Below are positions 2,192 through 10,651 of a stretch of 17,457 bases of DNA, in pieces (within the stretch, counting starts at the first letter, position 1; the number at the start of each line of letters is the position of its first letter). The position numbers were made by a program, and so were the translations under genes. The DNA comes from Candidatus Micrarchaeum sp. (lineage in GTDB: Archaea; SpSt-1190; DYHY01): assembly GCA_020723935.1 (NCBI GenBank), contig DYHY01000017.1, forward strand, positions 1 through 17,457, read 5' to 3'. The notes beneath the pieces were generated by a model, which did no database searches, had not been told where the DNA came from, and saw nothing but the letters and a program-made list of their open reading frames with translations.

Positions 2192-2278
2192 GCCGTGGTG
2201 GCTGAACCCGGTCAAGGCGCTAGACTCGAGATCTAGTCCCCTCAGGGATTCCAGGTTCAAATCCTGGCCACGGCGCCA
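2192..2278 (+). tRNA. tRNA-Ser (anticodon CGA), with encoded CCA
   Basis: This is a class II tRNA with a long variable arm. The acceptor is GCCGTGG/CCACGGC, the anticodon stem CTAGA/TCTAG with loop CTCGAGA (anticodon CGA, decoding UCG), the variable arm contains CCCCTCAGGG, and the T-arm is CCAGG-TTCAAAT-CCTGG. The discriminator is G (2275) and CCA is encoded at 2276-2278. A broken copy of its T-arm and 3' end lies about 80-140 nt downstream. Confidence 0.95.
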
Positions 2279-2332
2279 AAACCCCTTTTCTCTTGCGAAG
2301 CGAAAAAGTCTTTTACGGTCAAAAAGAGAAGC

Positions 2333-2351
2333 GTCCGTCCAGAGGACGGAC
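2333..2351. other. Perfect 8-bp hairpin beside the tRNA-Ser partial copy
   Basis: gtccgtcc (2333-2340) and ggacggac (2344-2351) pair perfectly around a 3-nt loop, immediately before the duplicated T-arm fragment. It could be a terminator, a recombination-site arm or part of a small RNA. Confidence 0.45.
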
Positions 2352-2354
2352 AAG

Positions 2355-2420
2355 ACAGTTCAAATCTTGAGCCTCGGCGAAATCCTGAGCGCGGAGCGAA
2401 GGGCTGGCCACGGCGCTCCA
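2355..2420 (+). repeat. Interrupted partial copy of the tRNA-Ser T-arm and 3' end
   Basis: gttcaaatc at 2358-2366 repeats tRNA-Ser 2255-2263. ctggccacggcgc at 2404-2416 repeats 2264-2276 exactly. These two segments are contiguous in the tRNA but here are separated by 37 nt (2367-2403), which contain GAGC (2369), CGGCGA (2375) and GGAGC (2393). A similar insert occurs in the tRNA-Gly partial copy at 10258-10311. Direct repetition of a tRNA 3' end is the usual scar or att site of an integrative element; here the copy is split. No complete gene lies between the tRNA and the copy. Confidence 0.7.
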
Positions 2421-2472
2421 ACCCCTCAAGTTGAGATTTTCTCTTCGGTTTATTAAGAAAGAGAAACGGCCC

Positions 2473-3042
2473 TCACGTCGCGATGGAAAAAACTCCGTCC
2501 ACGACTTCGTCACAATGAGCTCTGGCCTCCATTTCCGAGTATCCAACGGTCGCGTCGGTATAATAGTGACCCACGACTTCGTTCCCACTCCCTAGGTCCC
2601 GAGTGCATGTCGCAACATAACGCGGCGGGCAGGGCTTGTTGAACGTTATGAGCGTCCCTTCCCGGCAGTCCTTCCCCACGCGGGTCTTGGCCGCATAAAG
2701 CCCCTTTGTCCAGCCATCGCCGCTGTAAGTATAGCACGCTCCGTCAGATTTCTTGCACGAATAGATGACCGGATTGACGAAGAACCGGAAAAGGAACAGC
2801 AGGACGAATATCCTGAATGCCAGGCAAACCGCGCCCGAGGCGATTTTCGCCCATTTTTTCTTGTCGGAAAGGCCCCTACGCAGTAAGACGGTGAAAAGCC
2901 AGGAGAAATGGTAGACCCAGACGAAGAATGACGCGTTGATTATCGAGCCGATGTCGAAAGGCCTGATGGGTGTGCCGTTCTCATGTGCTGGCTGAAGATT
3001 CAAGAGGACGAAGATCATGCCTGCCAGGAGAGCGGCGAGCAC
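2473..3042 (-). CDS. Membrane protein with Cys-rich C-terminal domain
   Basis: I do not recognise this 189-aa protein. It has an N-terminal hydrophobic helix (LAALLAGMIFVLLNL), a second near 35-55 (SFFVWVYHFSWLFTVLL), a third near 70-92 (AVCLAFRIFVLLFLFRFF), then a roughly 95-residue soluble domain. That domain has six cysteines (SCKKSDGACYTY..., KDCREG, NKPCPPRYVATC, AHCDEV) and aromatic/Gly-rich segments, suggesting a disulfide-linked extracytoplasmic domain. GTG 3042 comes 6 nt after the stop of the upstream membrane gene, so they form a two-gene operon. Codons are more mixed and less GC-rich than in the housekeeping genes, hinting at accessory origin. Confidence 0.7.
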   Translation of the reverse strand: MLAALLAGMIFVLLNLQPAHENGTPIRPFDIGSIINASFFVWVYHFSWLFTVLLRRGLSDKKKWAKIASGAVCLAFRIFVLLFLFRFFVNPVIYSCKKSDGACYTYSGDGWTKGLYAAKTRVGKDCREGTLITFNKPCPPRYVATCTRDLGSGNEVVGHYYTDATVGYSEMEARAHCDEVVDGVFSIAT

Positions 3043-3048
3043 GGTTTT

Positions 3049-3471
3049 TCAGCCCAGCTTCCACCTCTGGAGAGCGATCCCCAGGAGGAAAACGGCGACG
3101 GAAATCCCTATTGTGGCAGTCAGTATGTGAAAAGTCAGGTGCTTGATGAACCAGTTGGGCTTGAAGAGATCTCTGATGTGTACCGAGAATTCCGTTAGGA
3201 AGACATAGACGTAGGAGACGGCTACGAAAAGGGGCAACTCCTTCGGATTGAAGTAGGATTTCTTCAGCCCGGATTCGACTTGCTGGTGGGAATGCCGCGC
3301 CAAGAGCGTCACCCCGACGGCGAAAACGTAGAAGGACACGTAAGATGCGATGTTGCCTGCCGTGGGATCCTTGTTGAACGATGGGACCAGAAGGGCCGCC
3401 GCAAGGGTGAATAAAACGATGAGCGCCGCCCACGGAAGCTCTTTGCGGTCTAGGTATTTCTTGAAATTCAG
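3049..3471 (-). CDS. Four-helix membrane protein with probable CTG start
   Basis: This is an unrecognised protein of about 140 aa. The frame is open from just after a TAA upstream of CTG 3471 (MNFKKYLDRKELPW...). It has four hydrophobic segments (WAALIVLFTLAAALLV; YVSFYVFAVGVTLLA; LPLFVAVSYVYVFL; FHILTATIGISVAVFLLGIAL). The only conventional start, GTG 3339, would delete the first helix and begin in the middle of the second. CTG 3471 lies about 29 nt from a TATA-like element (GATATA on minus, 3497-3502), which supports a leaderless non-canonical start. A mutated ATG or a missed indel is the alternative. It is the first gene of an operon with the Cys-rich membrane protein, and co-expression suggests the two may form a complex. 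Confidence 0.65.
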   Translation of the reverse strand: MNFKKYLDRKELPWAALIVLFTLAAALLVPSFNKDPTAGNIASYVSFYVFAVGVTLLARHSHQQVESGLKKSYFNPKELPLFVAVSYVYVFLTEFSVHIRDLFKPNWFIKHLTFHILTATIGISVAVFLLGIALQRWKLG

Positions 3472-3496
3472 TTCGGGTTAATGGCGTTAGCTTCCG

Positions 3497-3502
3497 TATA
3501 TC
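3497..3502 (-). promoter_or_regulatory. TATA-like element of the two-gene membrane operon
   Basis: GATATA on the minus strand lies about 29 nt before CTG 3471. It is one of the arguments for that start. Confidence 0.35.
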
Positions 3503-3761
3503 TGATTGCCGAAAAAGGAGAACTGCGGCTGCATGAGTAGCATGCGCGAGAAGATGACTCAGCTCAACGGCTTGTCCGGTTGGTGAAACGGATGTCGGTT
3601 CAAGGCGTACCTTGGCGGCTTTTGAAAGTAGGGACGGCGTATGTACGGCGAGCGGACAAACGACATAGGCCGGAGAACGGAACCTCTGCTTGCCTTTGTC
3701 GTCCCGGCCACGGAGCCAAGCCCTATCCGCCCGCCGGACCTAGGAAAAAATTCAAGGAGGA

Positions 3762-4398
3762 TTAGTATTTGTTGTCGCCGGACTTCGCGGACCACTCGGT
3801 CACCGATGTCCGAAGCCCGCTGCGCAGGATTTGTTTTTCCGGGTCTACCTGCGGTACGGACCCATGAGCCTGGCCTGGCGCCTGTACATTTCCTGGGACG
3901 CGGTGTCGGGCGCCCTGTGGATGTCCTTGTCTATCTTTTCCCTCGTTTCCGCGGGAAGGTGGTCCGGGCCGTCCGCCAGCACCGGCGTCCTGCCGATCGG
4001 CTAGGCGGCCGTCCCCCCTGAAACGGGTCCGCCGCTGGCGGCATTCTCCCTGAACGCCAGCTCCTTGTCCAATTTAGAAACGTACTCGGCGGGCGCGTAA
4101 AGCCTCCTGCCGTTCCGGCGCCTGACCCTGCGCTCGTCGGATGGGTTTGCCTGCGAACCTGGTGATCCTTCGGGCGAAGCGTATTCCGAGGGCGAGCTGC
4201 CTAGCGGATATTTTGCAAGTTTCGATAGTGCCATGTCGGACCAGTATTTGAAAGCGGGGCGGTCCCTGTCGATCGCTGCCTTCTGAGCTTCTTGCAGCGC
4301 CCGGCGCGAGGACAGGATGGGAAGGTCTGATACTGCCCCGTCCCGGCCTTTGTCTCCTTGTCTAGGACGGATAGTTTGATATTGACTACATTTATCAT
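3762..4398 (-). pseudogene. Decayed or error-disrupted protein gene
   Basis: Read on minus, ATG 4398 begins MINVVNIKLSVLDKETKAG. Adding one G at the G4 run (cccc near 4338-4341 on plus) joins it to a long frame including ALQEAQKAAIDRDRPAFKYW, a basic RRVRRRNGRRLYAPAEY segment and KLDKELAFRE. That frame hits TAG at 4001-4003, yet continues in the same phase for 51 codons with GC-rich third positions (e.g. ETREKIDKDIHRAPDTASQE) to a TAG at 3845-3847. A further shift would add VDPEKQILRSGLRTSVTEW... to TAA 3762. I recognise no family. The AT-richer start, mixed codons and two or three disruptions suggest an acquired, decaying gene; short separate genes or a shadow frame remain possible for the last part. 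Confidence 0.35.
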
Positions 4399-4621
4399 CT
4401 ATGAATAGTATAGTTTTTATCCCGGTTAAACCTTTCCTATAATGGCCGATACGAAGCAATTAGTTAGTATAACGCGGTAAACCCCGCGCGGAGGGCCTTC
4501 GGAATCCGCTGTCGCGCCTACCTGACTTTGGGCGCGTACACGGAAGTCGAGTTCGGGATAAAGAAGCAGCGGCATTGAGTTCTGGAGGCGCAGTTTTTCG
4601 GTCTGGGGCCGCGGCCATTTC

Positions 4622-6387
4622 TCACGCCGGCCAGAGCAGGAAGACATGGTAATAGTAGTCCTCCCAACCCAGATTGATGCGCCGCATCTCACAGCCGCTT
4701 CGAGCCGCCATCCCTTGCACGCGCGAAAGGATCTCGCCCTTCGGGACCGTGGCCTCGTCCTCCCAGCCCCAGAGGTTCGGGGCGGCAGTCCGGGGGTTCT
4801 CGAAGAGGAGCAGGAAGGCGCCCCCCCTTTCCTGCGAGACGATCCTTTCGTACTCTGCGAGGGAGCCGACGCGCCTCAGGTCTAGGCCCGAATCCCCGCG
4901 CAAGTAGGAGATAGATATCGCCGACTGGCAGGTGGAATAGTAGATGGGCCCGCGCGGCAGGGGGCTTTCCGCCCGCCACCCGCCCAGCGACGGCGCGTTC
5001 CTTCCGGCCATCGCCGCCGCGCCCAAGGCCAGGATCGCCGCCGCGCCCAAGAGCGCGCGCCAGGGGAAGTGAGAGGTCCCGCCGCCGGAAATCCCCGAGG
5101 CCAGGGGATGGACGAGGACGAGGAAGAAGATTGACCGGCCCGCCTCCATCTCCAGGGGATCGAGCGGATGGTAGCTGAGAGTGGTCGCGGCGAGGAAGAA
5201 CAGGGCGAGCCAGAACACGTACGCCGCCGCAGGTTTCCCGCCGGGCTGCCTGTCCGACTTCCAGAAGAACGCGAGATGCGCCGCCGATGCCAGGGCTGCG
5301 GCAGGCAGTATCCAGGCCGTCCAGCCGTTCCTCCCGGCCTCGACGGCGAGGTGCGAGGCGCGCGCGAGGATGTTCGTCCCGAAATCCAGCGGGCTGTAGC
5401 CGTATTGCGCGGTGTATCCGCTGGAGAGGGCTTGCGTCGTCTCGCCGAAGACGAGGAAGCCGGTCCGCAGGTTGTATGCGAAGAAGGGGACTGCCGCGAT
5501 TGCGAGCGCAAGAATGAACGCCGCGGCGGCGTTAAGGTTCGCCGCCTTGCGCAGGACTCCCTTGCGCCCGGTCACGACGAGGGCCGCGGCGGCCGACAGG
5601 AGGAACGGGACGAAGTATATCTTGGCCGTCACGCCGAAGCCGGCGAGGAAGCCGAGGCTTGCGGCAGCGAGGGGCCCGCCGGGGCCGTCCAGGAACGCGA
5701 GGAGCGCTATCACGAACGCGACCGAGACGGCGTTCTGCATCCAGGTGTCGTGGAGGAGCAGGCCCTTGTCCGGCCAGAAGGCGAGGCCCTGCAGGACGAA
5801 GACGGCTAGCACTGCGAGGGCCGCCGGCCGGCTGTAGATTCGCTTGGCGAGGACGTAGGTTAGGAAGGCGGCTATCGCGAAGATTGCGGCGTATGCGAGG
5901 CGCAGGGAATCCTGCGTCCTGCCGAAAAGCGAATCGACCAAGAAGAGGAGGATCGACATGTTCGGCCCGAACATTGGGGTCGTCGCCTTCTCGTTCCCGG
6001 CGTAGCAGGCGGCAGGCTCGCCCCTCGCCATCTGGGCGTACCAGATCCCCTCGAACTGCGACCCGCTCTCCTGCGTGAGGAGGAACGTCCCGGCGAAAGC
6101 GAGGGCGAGGAGAAGGACGAGCGCCAAGGCGGGGAAGAAGGCCTTCCTGGAGAGCGGACCCGCCGCCCCCTTCTCTTCCGCCTGCCGAAGAGAGCCGTCT
6201 GGGCGAAGACGAGCGCCGCGAACAGGGCCGCCCCCGCGGGGATTGCGACGGAGGATTGGAAGAAATTGAACGCCGGGGCGCCGGAAAGGTCCAGGGACGC
6301 GGCGAAGACAAGGAAGAGCGCGATTCCTGCGCCGGCGGCATGCCGCAGGTTCTTCCACATATGGCTTTTTGCGCCCGGAGCCTTCAT
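4622..6387 (-). CDS. GT39/PMT-like membrane glycosyltransferase, one apparent frameshift
   Basis: This looks like a GT-C-fold dolichyl-phosphate-sugar-dependent transferase or related membrane glycosyltransferase, acting in surface-glycan or glycoprotein assembly. About 10-12 hydrophobic helices are visible. After the third helix comes an acidic-aromatic loop motif (QFEGIWYAQMARG) then TTPMFGPN, the position of the catalytic acid loop in GT-C enzymes. A soluble C-terminal tail of about 110 residues follows. The N-terminus (MKAPGAKSHMWKNLRHAAG..., two helices, ending FGRRKRR) and the rest (GAAGPLSRKAFFPALAL...) lie in different frames; adding one base at the C5 run 6166-6170 yields a continuous 588-aa protein. 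ATG 6387 is about 40 nt below the divergent TATA at 6426-6434. Substrate unknown. Confidence 0.75.
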
Positions 6388-6425
6388 TTTAACTGTTTGG
6401 CGGCTTTTTTCGGCCACTCTTAAAT

Positions 6426-6434
6426 GTTATAAAT
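6426..6434. promoter_or_regulatory. Divergent TATA element
   Basis: gttataaat contains the palindrome TTATAA. It lies about 40 nt upstream of ATG 6387 (minus, glycosyltransferase) and about 41-49 nt upstream of ATG 6475 (plus), so the two genes may share one core promoter. Confidence 0.45.
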
Positions 6435-6474
6435 CACCTTGTCATATCCACTTCCGGGGGGGGTACTGGGCAGC

Positions 6475-6898
6475 ATGACGAGCTTGATTGGCAAAGTTGA
6501 CCTTCCGAAGGTGGGCACAGTTTCGTACTTCCTGGACGACGCGGCGGGGCGCCTCGTGTTCAACGGGGCGGTCTCCGCGGACGGGACGAAGCCCTTCGAC
6601 TATCCCGGGGGCAAGGAAGCTCTACAAATACCTCGCGGGGGAGGACGTCTTGATGCCCTACGAGGTCATAGTTCTCGAGACCGACGATGTCAGGCGCGCG
6701 AGGGCCAACAGGGTGGCTGCCGACAGGCGGGCGGCCAGCCAGAGCATGGAGCCCAAGCGTCCCGACGAGTACGAGAGGCTTTCCAAGGCCGCGAGCCTCG
6801 GCGGGAAGTTCACGCCGATATTCCGCAGGCACGGCACGTCGACTGCCGCAGGGAAGACGGTGCCCCTGGAGAAGTTCCTAGACTCCGTCCGGGGATGA
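6475..6898 (+). CDS. Small protein of unknown function, one apparent frameshift
   Basis: I do not recognise the family. From ATG 6475 the frame reads MTSLIGKVDLPKVGTVSYF then LDDAAGRLVFNGAVSADG and FDYPG. At the G5 run 6607-6611 the coding signal moves to another frame, continuing KLYKYLAGEDVLMPYEVIVLET, a long basic helix, and TVPLEKFLDSVRG. Removing one G gives a single 140-aa protein: a beta-rich N-terminal half, then a basic helical region and a possible C-terminal strand-helix. Both halves have the GC-rich third positions of local genes, so the split is almost certainly not the native reading. It lies 41 nt upstream of the DUF47/Pit pair and may be cotranscribed with it. Confidence 0.65.
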
Positions 6899-6939
6899 AC
6901 GGTTAGGTTCAAAAGGAGACGAAAGGAGGATACGAGAAG

Positions 6940-7584
6940 ATGAAAAACGCGCTGGAGATAGTCTTTCCCAAGGAGACCAAGTTCTTCGACCTGCTCTACG
7001 AGCAGGCTACGAACGTGTCCGTAATGCACCAGAAGTTCACCGAGTTCCTAGACAGGTACGAGAAGCTGAAGCCCGGCGAGAAGGTGCAGATGGTGAAGAA
7101 GATCAAGGAGCTCGAGAGCCTCGGGGACAAGATGCTCTCCCTCATCCTCTCGGAGCTCGAGAGCGCCTTCATAACCCCCCTTGACCGCGACGACATACAC
7201 CGCCTGGCGATGAAGACGGACGACGTCGCGGACGCGATATACCACATGTCAAAGCGGATGGTCCTCTTCAAGGTGAGGCGCGTCCCGCCCCAGTTCCCAC
7301 GGATAAACAAGACAATAGGCCAGCAGCTCTCCATACTCTCCCAGATAATGGGCGGCCTGAAGACGAACGGCAAGGACACTGCCCTGCAATGCATAAAGAT
7401 CCAGAGCCTGGAGAACGAGGCCGAGGACCAGATAGACGAGGGCCTGGCAAAGGTCCTCTCCTCGAAGATGCCCGCCGACGAGCTCCTCAAGCTCAAGGAC
7501 CTCTACGACACAATGAAGCTCATAACGACGAACGCGGAGGACGTCACGTACCTCTTGCAGAACATAGAAGTGAAGCACGGCTAG
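6940..7584 (+). CDS. DUF47 / PhoU-like phosphate-transport regulator
   Basis: This 214-aa protein matches the length and helical pattern of the DUF47 (PhoU-related) family of four- to six-helix bundle proteins paired with Pit-type permeases. Family-like features are the opening FPKETKFFDLLYEQATNV, the metal-ligand-type E/D-xxx-D repeats (ELESLGDKM..., TPLDRDDIHRLAMKTDDVADAIYHM) and a second half-repeat (LENEAEDQIDEGL ... LKLKDLYDTMKLITTNAEDVTYLLQ). It is cytoplasmic and presumably gates or tunes the phosphate transporter encoded 18 nt downstream. A strong Shine-Dalgarno AAAGGAGG (GGAGG at 6925-6929) sits 10 nt before ATG 6940, one of the few clear ribosome-binding sites here, consistent with an internal operon position. 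Confidence 0.9.
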   Translation: MKNALEIVFPKETKFFDLLYEQATNVSVMHQKFTEFLDRYEKLKPGEKVQMVKKIKELESLGDKMLSLILSELESAFITPLDRDDIHRLAMKTDDVADAIYHMSKRMVLFKVRRVPPQFPRINKTIGQQLSILSQIMGGLKTNGKDTALQCIKIQSLENEAEDQIDEGLAKVLSSKMPADELLKLKDLYDTMKLITTNAEDVTYLLQNIEVKHG

Positions 7585-7602
7585 TCCCGCACGAGCGCAA
7601 AG

Positions 7603-8601
7603 ATGGTCTCAGCACTGATAATCGGCCTCGTCGTCCTCGCCCTCGTCTTCGACTTCGTGAACGGCTTCCACGACGCGGCCAACTCCATAGCGACCGTCGT
7701 CGTCACGCGCGTCCTCTCGCCCAAGAAGGCGATACTAATGGCGGCTTTCGCGAATTTCATAGGATTCTTCTTCTTCTTCGGCGTGGCGGTGGCGAGCACC
7801 ATAGGCGAAGGAATAGTCCCCCCTGCGTTCATGACGCTGAAGGTGGCCGCCGCCGCCCTCGCCGGCGCCATAATCTGGAACGGGGTCACATGGCTTTTCG
7901 GGATCCCCGCCTCTAGCAGCCATGCCCTTGTCGGCGGCCTAGTCGGCGCGGGCCTCCTCGCCGCCGGGCCTTCCGCGGTGAACTTCGCTAGCGTCTGGAA
8001 GATCGCCGCGTTCATCGTCGTGGCTCCACTCCTCGGTATGCTTGGCGCCCTCGTCATGGCGGCCGCGACCTTCAGGCCGTTCCGGGCGATGCGGCGCGGG
8101 GCGAGAACGCGCCTCGCCGGGTTCCTCCAGATAGTCTCGGCGTTCTTCCTCTCGGTGAGCCACGGCGTCAACGACGCGCAGAAGACAATGGGCCTCATAG
8201 CCGCGATGCTCCTGTCGGAAGGGATGATAGCGAACTTCTACGTCCCAAAGTGGGTGGAGCTAGCCTGCTACACGATGATCTCCCTCGGCACGCTCACGGG
8301 CGGCTGGAAGATAATCAAGTCAATGGGCGAGAAGATAACGCGCCTGGAGCCCCTCGACGGCTTCTGCGCCCAGACGGGCGGGGTGGCTGTCCTGTTCATG
8401 ACTGCGGGCCTCGGGATACCTGCGAGCACGACGCACGTGATATCGGGCTCGGTGATGGGTGTGGGAGTCGCGAAGAACGCGGCGAGGGTGAACTGGTCGA
8501 CCGTGCGCGAGTTCGCGATAGCCTGGATCCTCACCATCCCCGCGGCCGCGGCCCTCTCGGCGGCGACCTATTTCGCGCTGGGCTTCTTGCACCTTTTCTA
8601 G
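7603..8601 (+). CDS. pit: Pit-family inorganic phosphate (or sulfate) permease
   Basis: This 332-aa integral membrane transporter belongs to the PiT family (low-affinity cation-coupled phosphate uptake). Both signature repeats are present: DFVNGFHDAANSIA at 17-30 and VSHGVNDAQKTMGL near 184-197. The paired motifs IPASSSHALVGG (about 102-113) and IPASTTHVISGS (about 265-276) mark the inverted repeat of the transport core. About ten hydrophobic helices are visible. ATG 7603 is 18 nt after the DUF47 stop. Pit-DUF47 pairs are a known archaeal and bacterial arrangement, and the partner argues for phosphate rather than sulfate. No truncation or missing motif. Confidence 0.93.
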   Translation: MVSALIIGLVVLALVFDFVNGFHDAANSIATVVVTRVLSPKKAILMAAFANFIGFFFFFGVAVASTIGEGIVPPAFMTLKVAAAALAGAIIWNGVTWLFGIPASSSHALVGGLVGAGLLAAGPSAVNFASVWKIAAFIVVAPLLGMLGALVMAAATFRPFRAMRRGARTRLAGFLQIVSAFFLSVSHGVNDAQKTMGLIAAMLLSEGMIANFYVPKWVELACYTMISLGTLTGGWKIIKSMGEKITRLEPLDGFCAQTGGVAVLFMTAGLGIPASTTHVISGSVMGVGVAKNAARVNWSTVREFAIAWILTIPAAAALSAATYFALGFLHLF

Positions 8602-8615
8602 GGAGCCTTCCCTGT

Positions 8616-8938
8616 TCAGGTGCTCTTCCGATGGCCCCAGCCTTGTTTTTCGCTGCGAGGAGCTAGGCAGTCCTTGTATGCCTCGCGCAGTTCGCTCGCA
8701 GTTATCAGGATGGGTATGGGCGGGGCGGCGAGGGACACGACGAGGGCGCCGAAGGTCATGAGGCCGTGCAGGCCCGCGACGACGAGGGGCCGGTCGGCGT
8801 ATTCCTCCGCCACCTCGCAGTAAATCCCGATGGCGTTCCTGCCGAAGCGGTCCGCGACCGCCCTCGCATATGTTCCGATGCGACCCCTTTCCCGTCAGGT
8901 TCCGCGTAGTCCGTCCGCGCCAGGGTGTTCGTTTTCAC
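8616..8938 (-). CDS. Small membrane-anchored protein, one apparent frameshift
   Basis: This is an unrecognised protein. The C-terminal part (IGTYARAVADRFGRNAIGIYCEVAEEYADRP, then the hydrophobic segment LMTFGALVVSLAAPPIPILI, then SELREAYKDCLAP) is open on minus but has no start before GTG 8822, deep in the protein. A GTG at 8938 opens another frame (MKTNTLARTDYAEPDGKG). One added base at the C4 run 8884-8887 (G4 on minus) joins them into 107 aa. GTG 8938 lies about 33 nt below GTATAAG (8968-8974 on minus), the spacing of a leaderless transcript. It is divergent from the membrane protein at 9070 and convergent with pit. Confidence 0.5.
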
Positions 8939-8967
8939 TCCTCCTAGTGACCGGGCGGCGGGCCGGG

Positions 8968-8974
8968 CTTATAC
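8968..8974 (-). promoter_or_regulatory. TATA-like element for the 8938 gene
   Basis: GTATAAG on the minus strand is about 33 nt from GTG 8938 and supports that start. Confidence 0.4.
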
Positions 8975-9034
8975 GCACGTCCGAGTTTGGCCCTTTATTC
9001 GTGCCGGGACGGGCGGCGCCTAGGGGGGATTTGA

Positions 9035-9040
9035 TATATA
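9035..9040 (+). promoter_or_regulatory. TATA box for the 9070 gene
   Basis: TATATA lies about 32 nt upstream of ATG 9070 in a GC-rich background, the usual leaderless distance. Confidence 0.5.
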
Positions 9041-9069
9041 TCCGCCGGACGTCTCCCCGCACCCATCCG

Positions 9070-9568
9070 ATGGAAAAAAGACGATTCTCCGCAAACAAGA
9101 TCCCACCCGCCCTGACATTCCTCGCGATCCTCACCGCCCTCGTTCTCGGGCCGGCGTCCGCCGCAGCAGCCGAAGTCTCCGAGCGCGAGGCGATGTTCTT
9201 CACGCTCAACACAGTCTTCTCCGTGATAAACGCGATGCTCGCGATAGGCTGCGCGCTCATATCCTTCAGGATCGTGAAGATCCTCTCGGACAAGAGGAAG
9301 GTGGCGCGCCTAAGGCCGGCTACTTCCTCTCGATGGAGTTCGTCTCCCTCTCCTGGAAGCTGATGTTCGCGGACTCGTCATCTTCGCCGCCGAATACAGC
9401 GCGACGACGATATTCCTCGTCGGAAGGTACGTCCTCCCTTCCGTGTTCTACGCGATACCCACCGTCTACATGCTTCTAGCGATGTACGTCCTGGAGGCGA
9501 TATTCATCATAATCCTCTCCTTCGGGATAATGGTCAACTATTACATAATGAAGAAGTACTGCGACTGA
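9070..9568 (+). CDS. Small multi-helix membrane protein, two apparent frameshifts
   Basis: ATG 9070 starts an N-terminal hydrophobic segment resembling a signal or anchor (ALTFLAILTALVLGPASAAAA), then a helix (FSVINAMLAIGCALISFRIV) and a basic turn (SDKRKV). Coding then moves frame near 9311 (AGYFLSMEFVSLSWKLMF) and again near 9379 (LVIFAAEYSATTIFLVGRY..., ending NYYIMKKYCD, TGA 9566-9568). Each junction is repaired by one added base (for example cta-aag and gac-ctc), giving about 166 aa with four or five helices. Its architecture resembles the 107-aa protein at 11924-12247 (helix, basic turn, paired helices), suggesting a distant relationship. Function unknown. Confidence 0.55.
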
Positions 9569-9588
9569 TCCGGGCGCCCGGGTAACGC

Positions 9589-9596
9589 TTTTAAAT
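9589..9596 (+). promoter_or_regulatory. TATA box of tRNA-Gly
   Basis: TTTTAAAT lies 27-34 nt upstream of the tRNA-Gly 5' end. It follows the 12-bp palindrome CCGGGCGCCCGG at 9570-9581 just after the upstream stop codon. Confidence 0.6.
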
Positions 9597-9622
9597 CCCC
9601 TGGAGGGGGTCTTGCCCAGCGC

Positions 9623-9698
9623 GCGATGGTCGTCTAGCCTGGTAGGACAGTGCGTTGCCAACGCACAAGCCCGGGTTCAAATCCCGGCCTTCGCACCA
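9623..9698 (+). tRNA. tRNA-Gly (anticodon GCC), with encoded CCA
   Basis: The anticodon stem is GTGCG/CGCAC with loop TTGCCAA (anticodon GCC), and the T-arm is CCGGG-TTCAAAT-CCCGG. The acceptor is GCGATGG/CCTTCGC, which pairs except for a T-T mismatch at position 5/68. The discriminator is A (9695) and CCA is encoded at 9696-9698. From 9679 onward (late T-loop to 3' end) the gene is part of an 89-bp direct repeat, so its 3' end may have been supplied by an integrated element. Confidence 0.93.
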
Positions 9699-9767
9699 TC
9701 CTCAGCTGGTGCAGATTGCGCACCTGCGGACAACAATTAGGTCCAGCTTTAGCTGGACCGGCCTTCG
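9679..9767 (+). repeat. 89-bp direct repeat, left copy (att-like, includes tRNA-Gly 3' end)
   Basis: This is identical base for base to 10296-10384. It begins in the tRNA-Gly T-loop (aaatcccgg), includes the acceptor 3' strand and CCA, then two alternative short hairpins (cacca/tggtg and ggtgc/gcacc), then an 8-bp hairpin ggtccagc-ttta-gctggacc (9740-9759), and ends in ccggccttcg, which repeats its own beginning. Confidence 0.9.
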
Positions 9768-9779
9768 TACTTCCCCGCA

Positions 9780-9796
9780 GGGGGGCTCCGCCCCCC
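9780..9796. terminator. Strong GC hairpin at the left end of the element
   Basis: ggggggc (9780-9786) and gcccccc (9790-9796) pair perfectly around a 3-nt loop. A second perfect hairpin, gcgatt-ttc-aatcgc, follows at 9831-9845, just before the TATA box of the cargo gene. They could insulate the cargo from tRNA transcription. Confidence 0.45.
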
Positions 9797-9849
9797 TTCA
9801 GGGCCAAGCTCCACCTGATTCCCCCCGGGTGCGATTTTCAATCGCGCAA

Positions 9850-9855
9850 TTTATA
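9850..9855 (+). promoter_or_regulatory. TATA box of the DUF457 cargo gene
   Basis: TTTATA lies 27-32 nt upstream of GTG 9882, giving a leaderless transcript and fixing that start. Confidence 0.55.
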
Positions 9856-9881
9856 GTAGAGCAGACTGGGATTAGTCGAAT

Positions 9882-10239
9882 GTGTCCGATAAACAAACTC
9901 ACATCTTTGTGGTTATTGGCGTTCTTTTCGTTGGTGGCTGGGCCTTCAACAAGTTCAACGTAGGCTGGCTTAGCCCATATGTGGTTTTTGTTCTAATCGG
10001 AGTACTTCTTCCCGACATCATAGAACCGGCAAGACATTATACTCACAGGAAATATTTTCACAGCAAACAGGTCGCCAAGACAATTGCCATGACCGCGGCA
10101 GTCTCCTTGCTTTTAGGAATTTTGTTGCACTGGCTGATTCGCTGGGATTCAGCTCTATACATTTCGTTTGTTGCCATAGGTAGGCTACGGTCTTCACCTC
10201 CTTATGGATTCAGCGACGAAGATCGGGTTGCCTGATTGA
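9882..10239 (+). CDS. DUF457 (YdjM-like) membrane metal-dependent hydrolase homologue, frameshifted
   Basis: The family comprises small membrane proteins with a metal-binding His/Asp set, annotated as putative hydrolases (YdjM is called LexA-regulated in E. coli); the reaction is unproven. From GTG 9882 the protein has N-terminal helices, then LLPDIIEP (D45), HYTHRKYFHS (H52, H55, H60) and a helix near 70-87. The direct frame ends in an atypical tail at TGA 10236, but removing one unit of the tandem duplication TAGG-TAGG (10177-10184) restores the expected family ending GYGLHLLMDSATKIGLP (H104, D108) and a stop at 10237-10239, giving 117 aa. The present reading therefore loses two predicted metal ligands. 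Codons are AT-richer than in neighbours, consistent with acquisition; the gene lies inside the direct-repeat element. Confidence 0.7.
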
Positions 10240-10257
10240 GCGCTTGACGATTTTGGA

Positions 10258-10311
10258 CCGGGTTCCCGAGCGACGGCGAGGTGCTCGGAGGAGCAAAATC
10301 CCGGCCTTCGC
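10258..10311 (+). repeat. Interrupted partial copy of the tRNA-Gly T-arm and 3' end
   Basis: ccgggttc (10258-10265) repeats the start of the tRNA-Gly T-arm. aaatcccgg (10296-10304) repeats the rest and runs into the acceptor strand. Between them are 30 nt (10266-10295) with a hairpin (ccgagc 10266-10271, gctcgg 10283-10288) and the pattern GAGC (10268), CGGCGA (10274), CT, GGAGC (10290). The same pattern interrupts the tRNA-Ser partial copy. Confidence 0.65.
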
Positions 10312-10384
10312 ACCATCCTCAGCTGGTGCAGATTGCGCACCTGCGGACAACAATTAGGTCCAGCTTTAGCTGGACCGGCCTTCG
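10296..10384 (+). repeat. 89-bp direct repeat, right copy (att-like)
   Basis: This is a perfect copy of 9679-9767. It is not attached to a functional tRNA body: its upstream flank is the interrupted T-arm described at 10258-10311. The following bases (cactcct versus tacttcc at the left copy) are still similar for a few positions. Confidence 0.9.
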
Positions 10385-10651
10385 CACTCCTCGGGACCGA
10401 AAAGAAAAGCCGCGCGCAGGGGTCACTTTCCGGCGCTCACGGCTGCGCCCGCCTCCGCCACCAATAAGTAGGAATGCCCCGAACGGATATTTTTGCGTTT
10501 TGGACAGAGGGCATGCACGCATTTATACGAGAAAGGGGGATTTGTTATGTTGCCTCTGGCTTGCTTTCGCCCCTGGCTTTCCTTTCCCGGGCCCCCTGCT
10601 GGCTCAATTACCTTTTTAAATCGCCGGCGGGCAGGCCTAGCTAACCCTAGT
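10385..10651. other. Gene-poor spacer before tRNA-Val
   Basis: No convincing gene lies here. A TATA-like atttatac (10520-10527) is followed by ATG 10548, which opens a 39-codon frame rich in Pro/Trp/Leu that runs through the tRNA-Val promoter and stops at 10663-10671 inside the tRNA. I consider that frame unlikely to be translated. A short untranslated transcript from this element is possible. Confidence 0.4.
10613..10621 (+). promoter_or_regulatory. TATA box of tRNA-Val
   Basis: TTTTTAAAT lies 31-39 nt upstream of the tRNA-Val 5' end, as for the other tRNAs here. Confidence 0.6.

Follow-up and report, generated by a model that had tools for sequence, protein, structure and literature searches.

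What placed partial copies of transfer RNA (tRNA) genes directly behind the genes themselves? tRNA genes are classic landing sites of mobile DNA, and the question is raised by a 17,457-nucleotide (nt) stretch, hereafter the window, which is contig DYHY01000017.1 (C30) of the archaeal draft genome G000 (Candidatus Micrarchaeum sp., GCA_020723935.1; 1.14 Mb, 47 contigs). The group consists of little-sampled archaea with mostly small genomes, and nine genomes of the class, including G000, were compared. Copies of tRNA 3' ends were detected behind tRNA-Ser and tRNA-Gly in the window and in seven of the nine genomes, separated from the gene by short inserts built of hairpins. Tiny inserts accompanied by target duplications occur at a large share of the tRNA genes in this lineage, and a search of the genomes that carry them did not yield the usual enzymes. 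The explanation that we favor, with a probability of slightly more than one-half, is that miniature hairpin elements insert at tRNA-gene ends, duplicating the target, and are then amplified in tandem.

Copies of tRNA ends in the window and in related genomes

Four tRNAs were identified in the window by ARAGORN (tRNA-Arg, -Ser, -Gly, and -Val). The partial 3'-end copies downstream of tRNA-Ser and tRNA-Gly that were described in the original prediction are real and far beyond chance, and their coordinates were correct: gttcaaatc at 2358-2366 and ctggccacggcgc at 2404-2416 (37 nt between) for tRNA-Ser, and ccgggttc at 10258-10265 and aaatcccgg at 10296-10304 (30 nt between) for tRNA-Gly. The proposal that each pair represents a T-arm split by one of two related inserts did not hold. 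Positions 2358-2386 instead form an additional, fuller copy of the tRNA-Ser 3' end, with the letters GTTCAAATCTTGAGCC-TCGGCG..AAATCC (0/3,000 shuffles score equally), and the 8-mer ccgggttc is at chance level, being matched by 221/3,000 shuffles. The likeness of the two inserts failed the shuffle control: their alignment score of 18 was reached by 729/3,000 dinucleotide shuffles and 158/3,000 random window pairs, so homology of the Ser and Gly inserts was rejected. A split T-arm or an archaeal tRNA intron was likewise rejected because the copies have no 5' half upstream.

To quantify the copies, each tRNA 3' end was compared with its own downstream sequence in a permutation test, with the ends of all other tRNAs as the reference. 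Own-tRNA copies were evident in G000 (z = 11.6) and in six of its eight class relatives (z = 7.6, 10.4, 3.2, 5.8, 8.8, and 3.2); in these seven genomes (G000, G001, G002, G004, G005, G007, and G008), the downstream copies match their own tRNA and not other tRNAs. None were detected in the remaining class members, G003 (3.8 Mb) and G006, nor at 68 tRNAs of nine other archaeal genomes, which restricts the copies to this lineage within the sample. The controls (3' end against upstream sequence and 5' end against downstream sequence) were mostly flat. In an archaeon of another family (G030, L345), candidate 3'-end copies lie 125 and 212 nt downstream of tRNA-Cys and tRNA-Ser, that is, at 2/4 tRNAs, a sample too small to judge.

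The original prediction had also proposed a search for additional copies next to the remaining tRNAs of this genome, and these are present. Among all tRNAs of G000, tandem copies were found at Arg-TCG (4 x 53 bp) and Pro-CGG (3 x 75 bp), with further ones at His, Leu-TAA, Leu-CAA, Gly-CCC, Gly-TCC, Met, and Ala-CGC. The most affected genomes harbor 6 to 8 strong copies each; most tRNAs have no strong copy, and many copies are decayed. The presence of an insert can differ between close relatives: for example, a tRNA-Cys insert in G005 is missing from its congener G008. The idea of a family of tRNA-targeting elements therefore stands on the copies at many tRNAs of G000 and six relatives and on their recognizable hairpin inserts, and no longer on split T-arms or insert likeness.

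Copies of tRNA 5' ends also occur upstream of the genes; these are few, and the 3' copies are far more numerous. The 5' copies inspected begin at or beside nt 1 and reach into the D-loop, over a length of 11 to 20 nt. Upstream of tRNA-Ser(GCT) in G002 (L180), the tRNA 5' end (nt 1 to 18) is repeated in tandem in units of 73 bp, an arrangement that mirrors the arrays at 3' ends.

Contig ends of G000 cluster within 500 nt downstream of tRNAs (6 observed versus 0.9 expected), a pattern to be expected of repeated or variable arrays, which interrupt assemblies and can lead tRNA annotation astray. Downstream of tRNA-Pro(TGG) in G007 (L209), tandem units of ~35 nt, AAGCTTTTGTCCGCAGACAAAACCTTGACCAAAAC, reach the contig end.

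Boundaries, sharing, and orientation of the hairpin inserts

The boundaries of the copies are sharp. Exact identity extends no more than 2 nt beyond the tRNA 3' end in 31 of 39 pairs, and the left edges lie mostly 13 to 25 nt before that end, in or near the T-loop. The insert between tRNA and copy is mostly 40 to 150 nt long and typically comprises two or three hairpins; in family f2, the order is H1 (followed by GAYCAAAA), H2 (a GC-rich palindrome), and H3 (directly adjoining the copy). A check for terminal inverted repeats found no consistent pairing between the two insert ends, and the folds are separate hairpins. Native trailer hairpins are often located behind the copy. When the window and three relative loci were scanned against Rfam, tRNA alone reached the gathering score and no other family matched convincingly. 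The copies end at the encoded 3' end and contain no CCA where the tRNA genes lack it; accordingly, neither the suggested insert derived from processed RNA nor a retro-copy of mature tRNA, which would contain the added CCA, was retained.

The same insert can be associated with different tRNAs, each time with the end of the respective tRNA. In G007, the inserts at Val-GAC and Val-CAC are identical over 63/63 nt and those at Ala and Gly over 28/28 nt; in G002, the Arg and Glu inserts are 86% identical over 77 nt. An insert core of ~16 to 18 nt is common to G002, G004, G005, and G007, so that sharing crosses genera, and all 8 occurrences of the motif AAGGGGCGRAGCYCCTT in the loci examined abut a tRNA 3'-end copy.

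These observations bear on the possibility that no mobile element is involved and that hairpins near tRNA genes cause replication slippage or template switching, repeatedly duplicating tRNA ends together with the hairpins. Such a process would require no enzyme, and the fresh tandem arrays of G000 (Arg-TCG, Pro-CGG, His, and Gly-CCC) do include trailer sequence. Outside G000, however, copies do not continue past the tRNA end, and the inserts do not consist of repeated downstream sequence; furthermore, inserts are common to different tRNAs and genera, 3' copies far exceed 5' copies, and some inserts are inverted (see below). We consider this explanation quite unlikely. Simple tandem duplication as the sole cause was rejected, given the inverted inserts and the exact stops at tRNA ends.

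A covariance model was built from the f2 tRNA leader (hairpin, CGTGG, hairpin). It produced 42 matches in 683 kb, and most of the stronger ones run up to either the first nucleotide of a full tRNA or the edge of a partial one. No matches were obtained in G000, G001, or other archaea, indicating that the f1 inserts are built of hairpins but differ in sequence. In G002, G005, G007, and G008 (L175-L222), a conserved two-hairpin leader, comprising a first hairpin whose stem has TGAG...GCGAA and then the CGTGG-hairpin, abuts tRNA nt 1 across genera.

The conservation of the leader model across genera, and the hairpins that directly adjoin the first and last nucleotides of the tRNA in f2 genomes, would fit a selected RNA module in which the hairpins of leader and trailer act in tRNA processing or termination and the copied tRNA end works as a decoy or a small RNA. 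Against such a role, most tRNAs lack a strong copy, presence differs between congeners, many copies are decayed, and leaders in the f1 genomes are of the ordinary TATA type and lack the hairpins; we regard it as very unlikely.

The trailer-type hairpin and its GAYCAAAA/AATCAAAA tail lie in inverted orientation directly beside the copy in three inserts (Cys in G002, Ala-GGC in G005, and Thr in G007); in three further cases, the hairpin adjoins the 5' end of a full tRNA. At the Thr locus of G007, a match to the leader model (E = 1.6e-4) is located at the opposite end of the insert, on the other strand. Together with the native trailers behind the copy, the inverted trailer-type ends argue for a discrete piece that inserts in either orientation.

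Under the favored explanation, namely, insertion with target duplication, elements mostly of 40 to 150 nt and built of hairpins, with longer, cargo-bearing ones also in the window, would duplicate typically 13 to 25 nt at 3' sites, approximately from the T-loop up to the final nucleotide of the tRNA. At 5' sites, the duplicated target would extend from nt 1 to the D-loop (11 to 20 nt). The tRNA would remain whole, with its native trailer hairpin pushed behind the copy, and insertion would be possible in either orientation. Once two tRNA-end copies are present, slippage or unequal recombination could multiply the unit, as at Arg-TCG and Pro-CGG in G000.

The tRNA-Ser and tRNA-Gly loci and the search for a recombinase

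The two loci of the window contain longer units (Table 1). Downstream of tRNA-Gly, a 93-bp direct repeat (9679-9771 and 10296-10388; identity, 92/93) starts in the T-loop, and both of its copies contain a mini-copy of the tRNA-Gly end of 13 to 14 nt, at 9758-9771 (CCGGCCTTCGTACT) and 10375-10388. The whole unit, with an open reading frame (ORF) as cargo, measures 617 bp. No homologues of the ORF product were found in 20 other archaeal genomes; the left part of the cargo segment shares 83% identity over 35 nt with the tRNA-Met insert of G001. The true relative of the right end of the Gly insert is GGTGCCCCGAGGAGCA at tRNA-Ala(CGC) in G000, which likewise abuts the copy of its own tRNA, and among 323 loci examined, the GGTGCTCGGAGGAGCA/GGTGCCCCGAGGAGCA pattern is confined to these two places. 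By reading of the sequence, tRNA-Gly has a U.U mismatch at acceptor pair 5:68, and the downstream copies have the same T.

Table 1. Features of the tRNA-Ser and tRNA-Gly loci in the window (GC, guanine-plus-cytosine fraction; aa, amino acids)
Feature	Position	Strand	Evidence or remarks
tRNA-Ser(CGA), anchor gene	2192..2278	+	ARAGORN; Rfam RF00005
Hairpin-rich insert, tRNA-Ser to first 3'-end copy	2279..2357	+	Fold of 2279-2403, z -2.3 versus shuffles
Degenerate copy of tRNA-Ser 3' end (T-loop to acceptor)	2358..2386	+	Local alignment score 33, 0/3,000 shuffles equal
Second tRNA-Ser 3'-end copy and flank	2404..2426	+	87% over 23 nt
Possible cargo segment	2427..3703	.	GC 0.54 versus 0.62 for window; no family above cut-off
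Third, weaker tRNA-Ser 3'-end copy	3704..3717	+	12/14 matches
tRNA-Gly(GCC), anchor gene	9623..9698	+	ARAGORN; sequence
Direct repeat copy 1: T-loop AAATCC to tRNA end, two-hairpin insert 9699-9757, mini-copy	9679..9771	+	
Cargo segment between 93-bp repeats	9772..10295	+	Holds lowest-GC place of window (0.449)
Cargo ORF, 117 aa, hydrophobic	9882..10235	+	No family above cut-off
Insert right end GGTGCTCGGAGGAGCA	10280..10295	+	Common to tRNA-Ala(CGC) insert (L044)
Direct repeat copy 2: tRNA-Gly 3'-end copy, hairpins, mini-copy 10375-10388	10296..10388	+	

At the tRNA-Ser locus, the second hairpin of the insert is formed by GTCCGTCC/GGACGGAC (2333-2351), and the possible cargo segment contains two predicted membrane ORFs, both on the - strand (2473-3042 and 3049-3339). 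The copy at 3704 is weak when taken alone, as a probe at the looser 10/14 threshold also matches 22 other places. Between the two loci (6940-8601), a DUF47/PhoU-like protein adjoins a PiT-type phosphate transporter, an ordinary pair.

The main rival explanation is that of classic attachment (att) footprints. Here, circular elements would be integrated by a tyrosine recombinase with crossover in the T-loop, bringing a replacement tRNA 3' end, and the displaced end would be attR; the small inserts would represent reduced elements or satellites, with the 617-bp Gly unit as a recent example that carries cargo. A start in the T-loop and a stop at the tRNA end are typical of such events, and the excess of 3' over 5' sites resembles known archaeal integrations (PMC6563490). 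In addition, the 93-bp repeat flanks low-GC cargo, and the U.U mismatch of tRNA-Gly recurs in the copies, as if the 3' end had been imported. Judged from this mismatch, the end could indeed be imported, and if so, att-type exchange would be favored at the tRNA-Gly locus. Conversely, tyrosine recombinases (PF00589) are missing from the proteins of all seven array genomes and are limited to the two class genomes without tRNA-end copies, G006 (C34:2129-2623) and G003 (contigs 31, 53, 76, and 88). Inserts of 37 to 60 nt are also too short for duplex DNA circles, the occurrence of one insert at several tRNAs, in each case with the end of the respective tRNA, would demand a different attP for every tRNA, and the inverted inserts are not accommodated. 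Overall, we consider att footprints an unlikely source of the arrays.

Three other families were searched in the nine class genomes. Neither serine recombinases (PF00239) nor Y1 transposases of the IS200-605 type (PF01797) were found above the cut-off (a single PF00239 match, of 20 bits in G001, fell below it), and no match to Cas1 (PF01867) was found at E <=0.1. A resident tyrosine or serine recombinase or Y1 transposase was thus rejected as the mover, none having been found in the array genomes. The absence of recombinases is only suggestive because the genomes are drafts (84 to 98% complete). A viral carrier was sought with two exact patterns, neither of which was present in the viral contigs searched.

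Several observations weigh against insertion of miniature elements. Several duplicated units in G000 extend 43 to 80 nt beyond the tRNA, and the 93-bp Gly repeat exceeds a normal target duplication; both fit tandem amplification or att-type recombination. The T-loop letters of the copies often deviate alike within one genome, as those of hybrid att sites do. H1, the trailer-type hairpin, is also present away from tRNAs and may be host sequence rather than part of an element. Finally, an exact empty counterpart from the same species is lacking, and the four families searched in these incomplete drafts yielded no enzyme. Insertion of miniature elements is nevertheless the explanation that we prefer, and we infer a transposition-like movement, catalyzed by an enzyme that either escapes recognition or comes from outside (virus, plasmid, or host). 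A more far-reaching proposal, which is tentative and on balance doubtful, is that the inserts are ultra-small hairpin transposons of a new class. These would recognize the ends of tRNA genes with their D- or T-loops, insert in either orientation with target duplication, and be moved by an enzyme that belongs to none of the known archaeal recombinase families and that a host or virus may provide.

Comparison with known systems

No paper on such arrays was found in the open-licence literature searched. The rtT repeats downstream of tyrT in Escherichia coli are similar in that the tandem units each begin with a tRNA 3' end; unlike the present arrays, they are a single E. coli locus. A CRISPR array was rejected because the spacers recur within arrays and Cas1 is missing. 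The repetitive hairpin elements and double-hairpin elements of mitochondrial genomes are likewise very short, mobile-looking hairpin repeats whose enzyme is unknown (PMC2800124); these are intergenic and not tied to tRNA ends, and those of Allomyces have no target duplications.

Elements of the SSV and pNOB8 types, which use tyrosine integrases, leave a whole tRNA and a partial copy as a direct repeat, mostly at the 3' and rarely at the 5' end (PMC6563490, PMC3293823), and a direct repeat from the T-loop to the tRNA 3' end is present here as well. Unlike in tyrosine-recombinase integrative elements, orientation relative to the tRNA is not fixed, as the three inserts with an inverted trailer-type end demonstrate. 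SSV- and pNOB8-type elements are also kilobases long and infrequent, with 7 fragments in 20 Thermococcaceae genomes (PMC9897764), and 39 tRNA insertions were reported in 20 thaumarchaeal genomes (PMC6563490). Such fragments flank elements of kilobase size and are far less frequent per genome than the strong copies in the most affected genomes studied here, which moreover lack an SSV- or pNOB8-type integrase.

The nearest likeness is casposase-type integration at tRNA 3' ends. Family 2 casposons are mostly located in tRNA genes, and the casposase of A. boonei reads TCAAATC, in the T-loop, near the 3' end of tRNA-Pro and generates a duplication of 14 to 15 bp (PMC6614799); tandem casposon insertion into one site is also known (PMC6563490). 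The present elements share the target duplication at the tRNA 3' end, yet they are not casposons, as membership fails on Cas1. They further differ in consisting of 40 to 150 nt of hairpins, in target duplications of up to ~25 nt, and in using 5'-end sites as well. Inserts of this size are too short to encode the family B DNA polymerase of casposons; larger autonomous copies were not searched for. The enzyme responsible, once found, could reveal new integration machinery and possibly bears on the origin of Cas1-type integration at tRNA ends.

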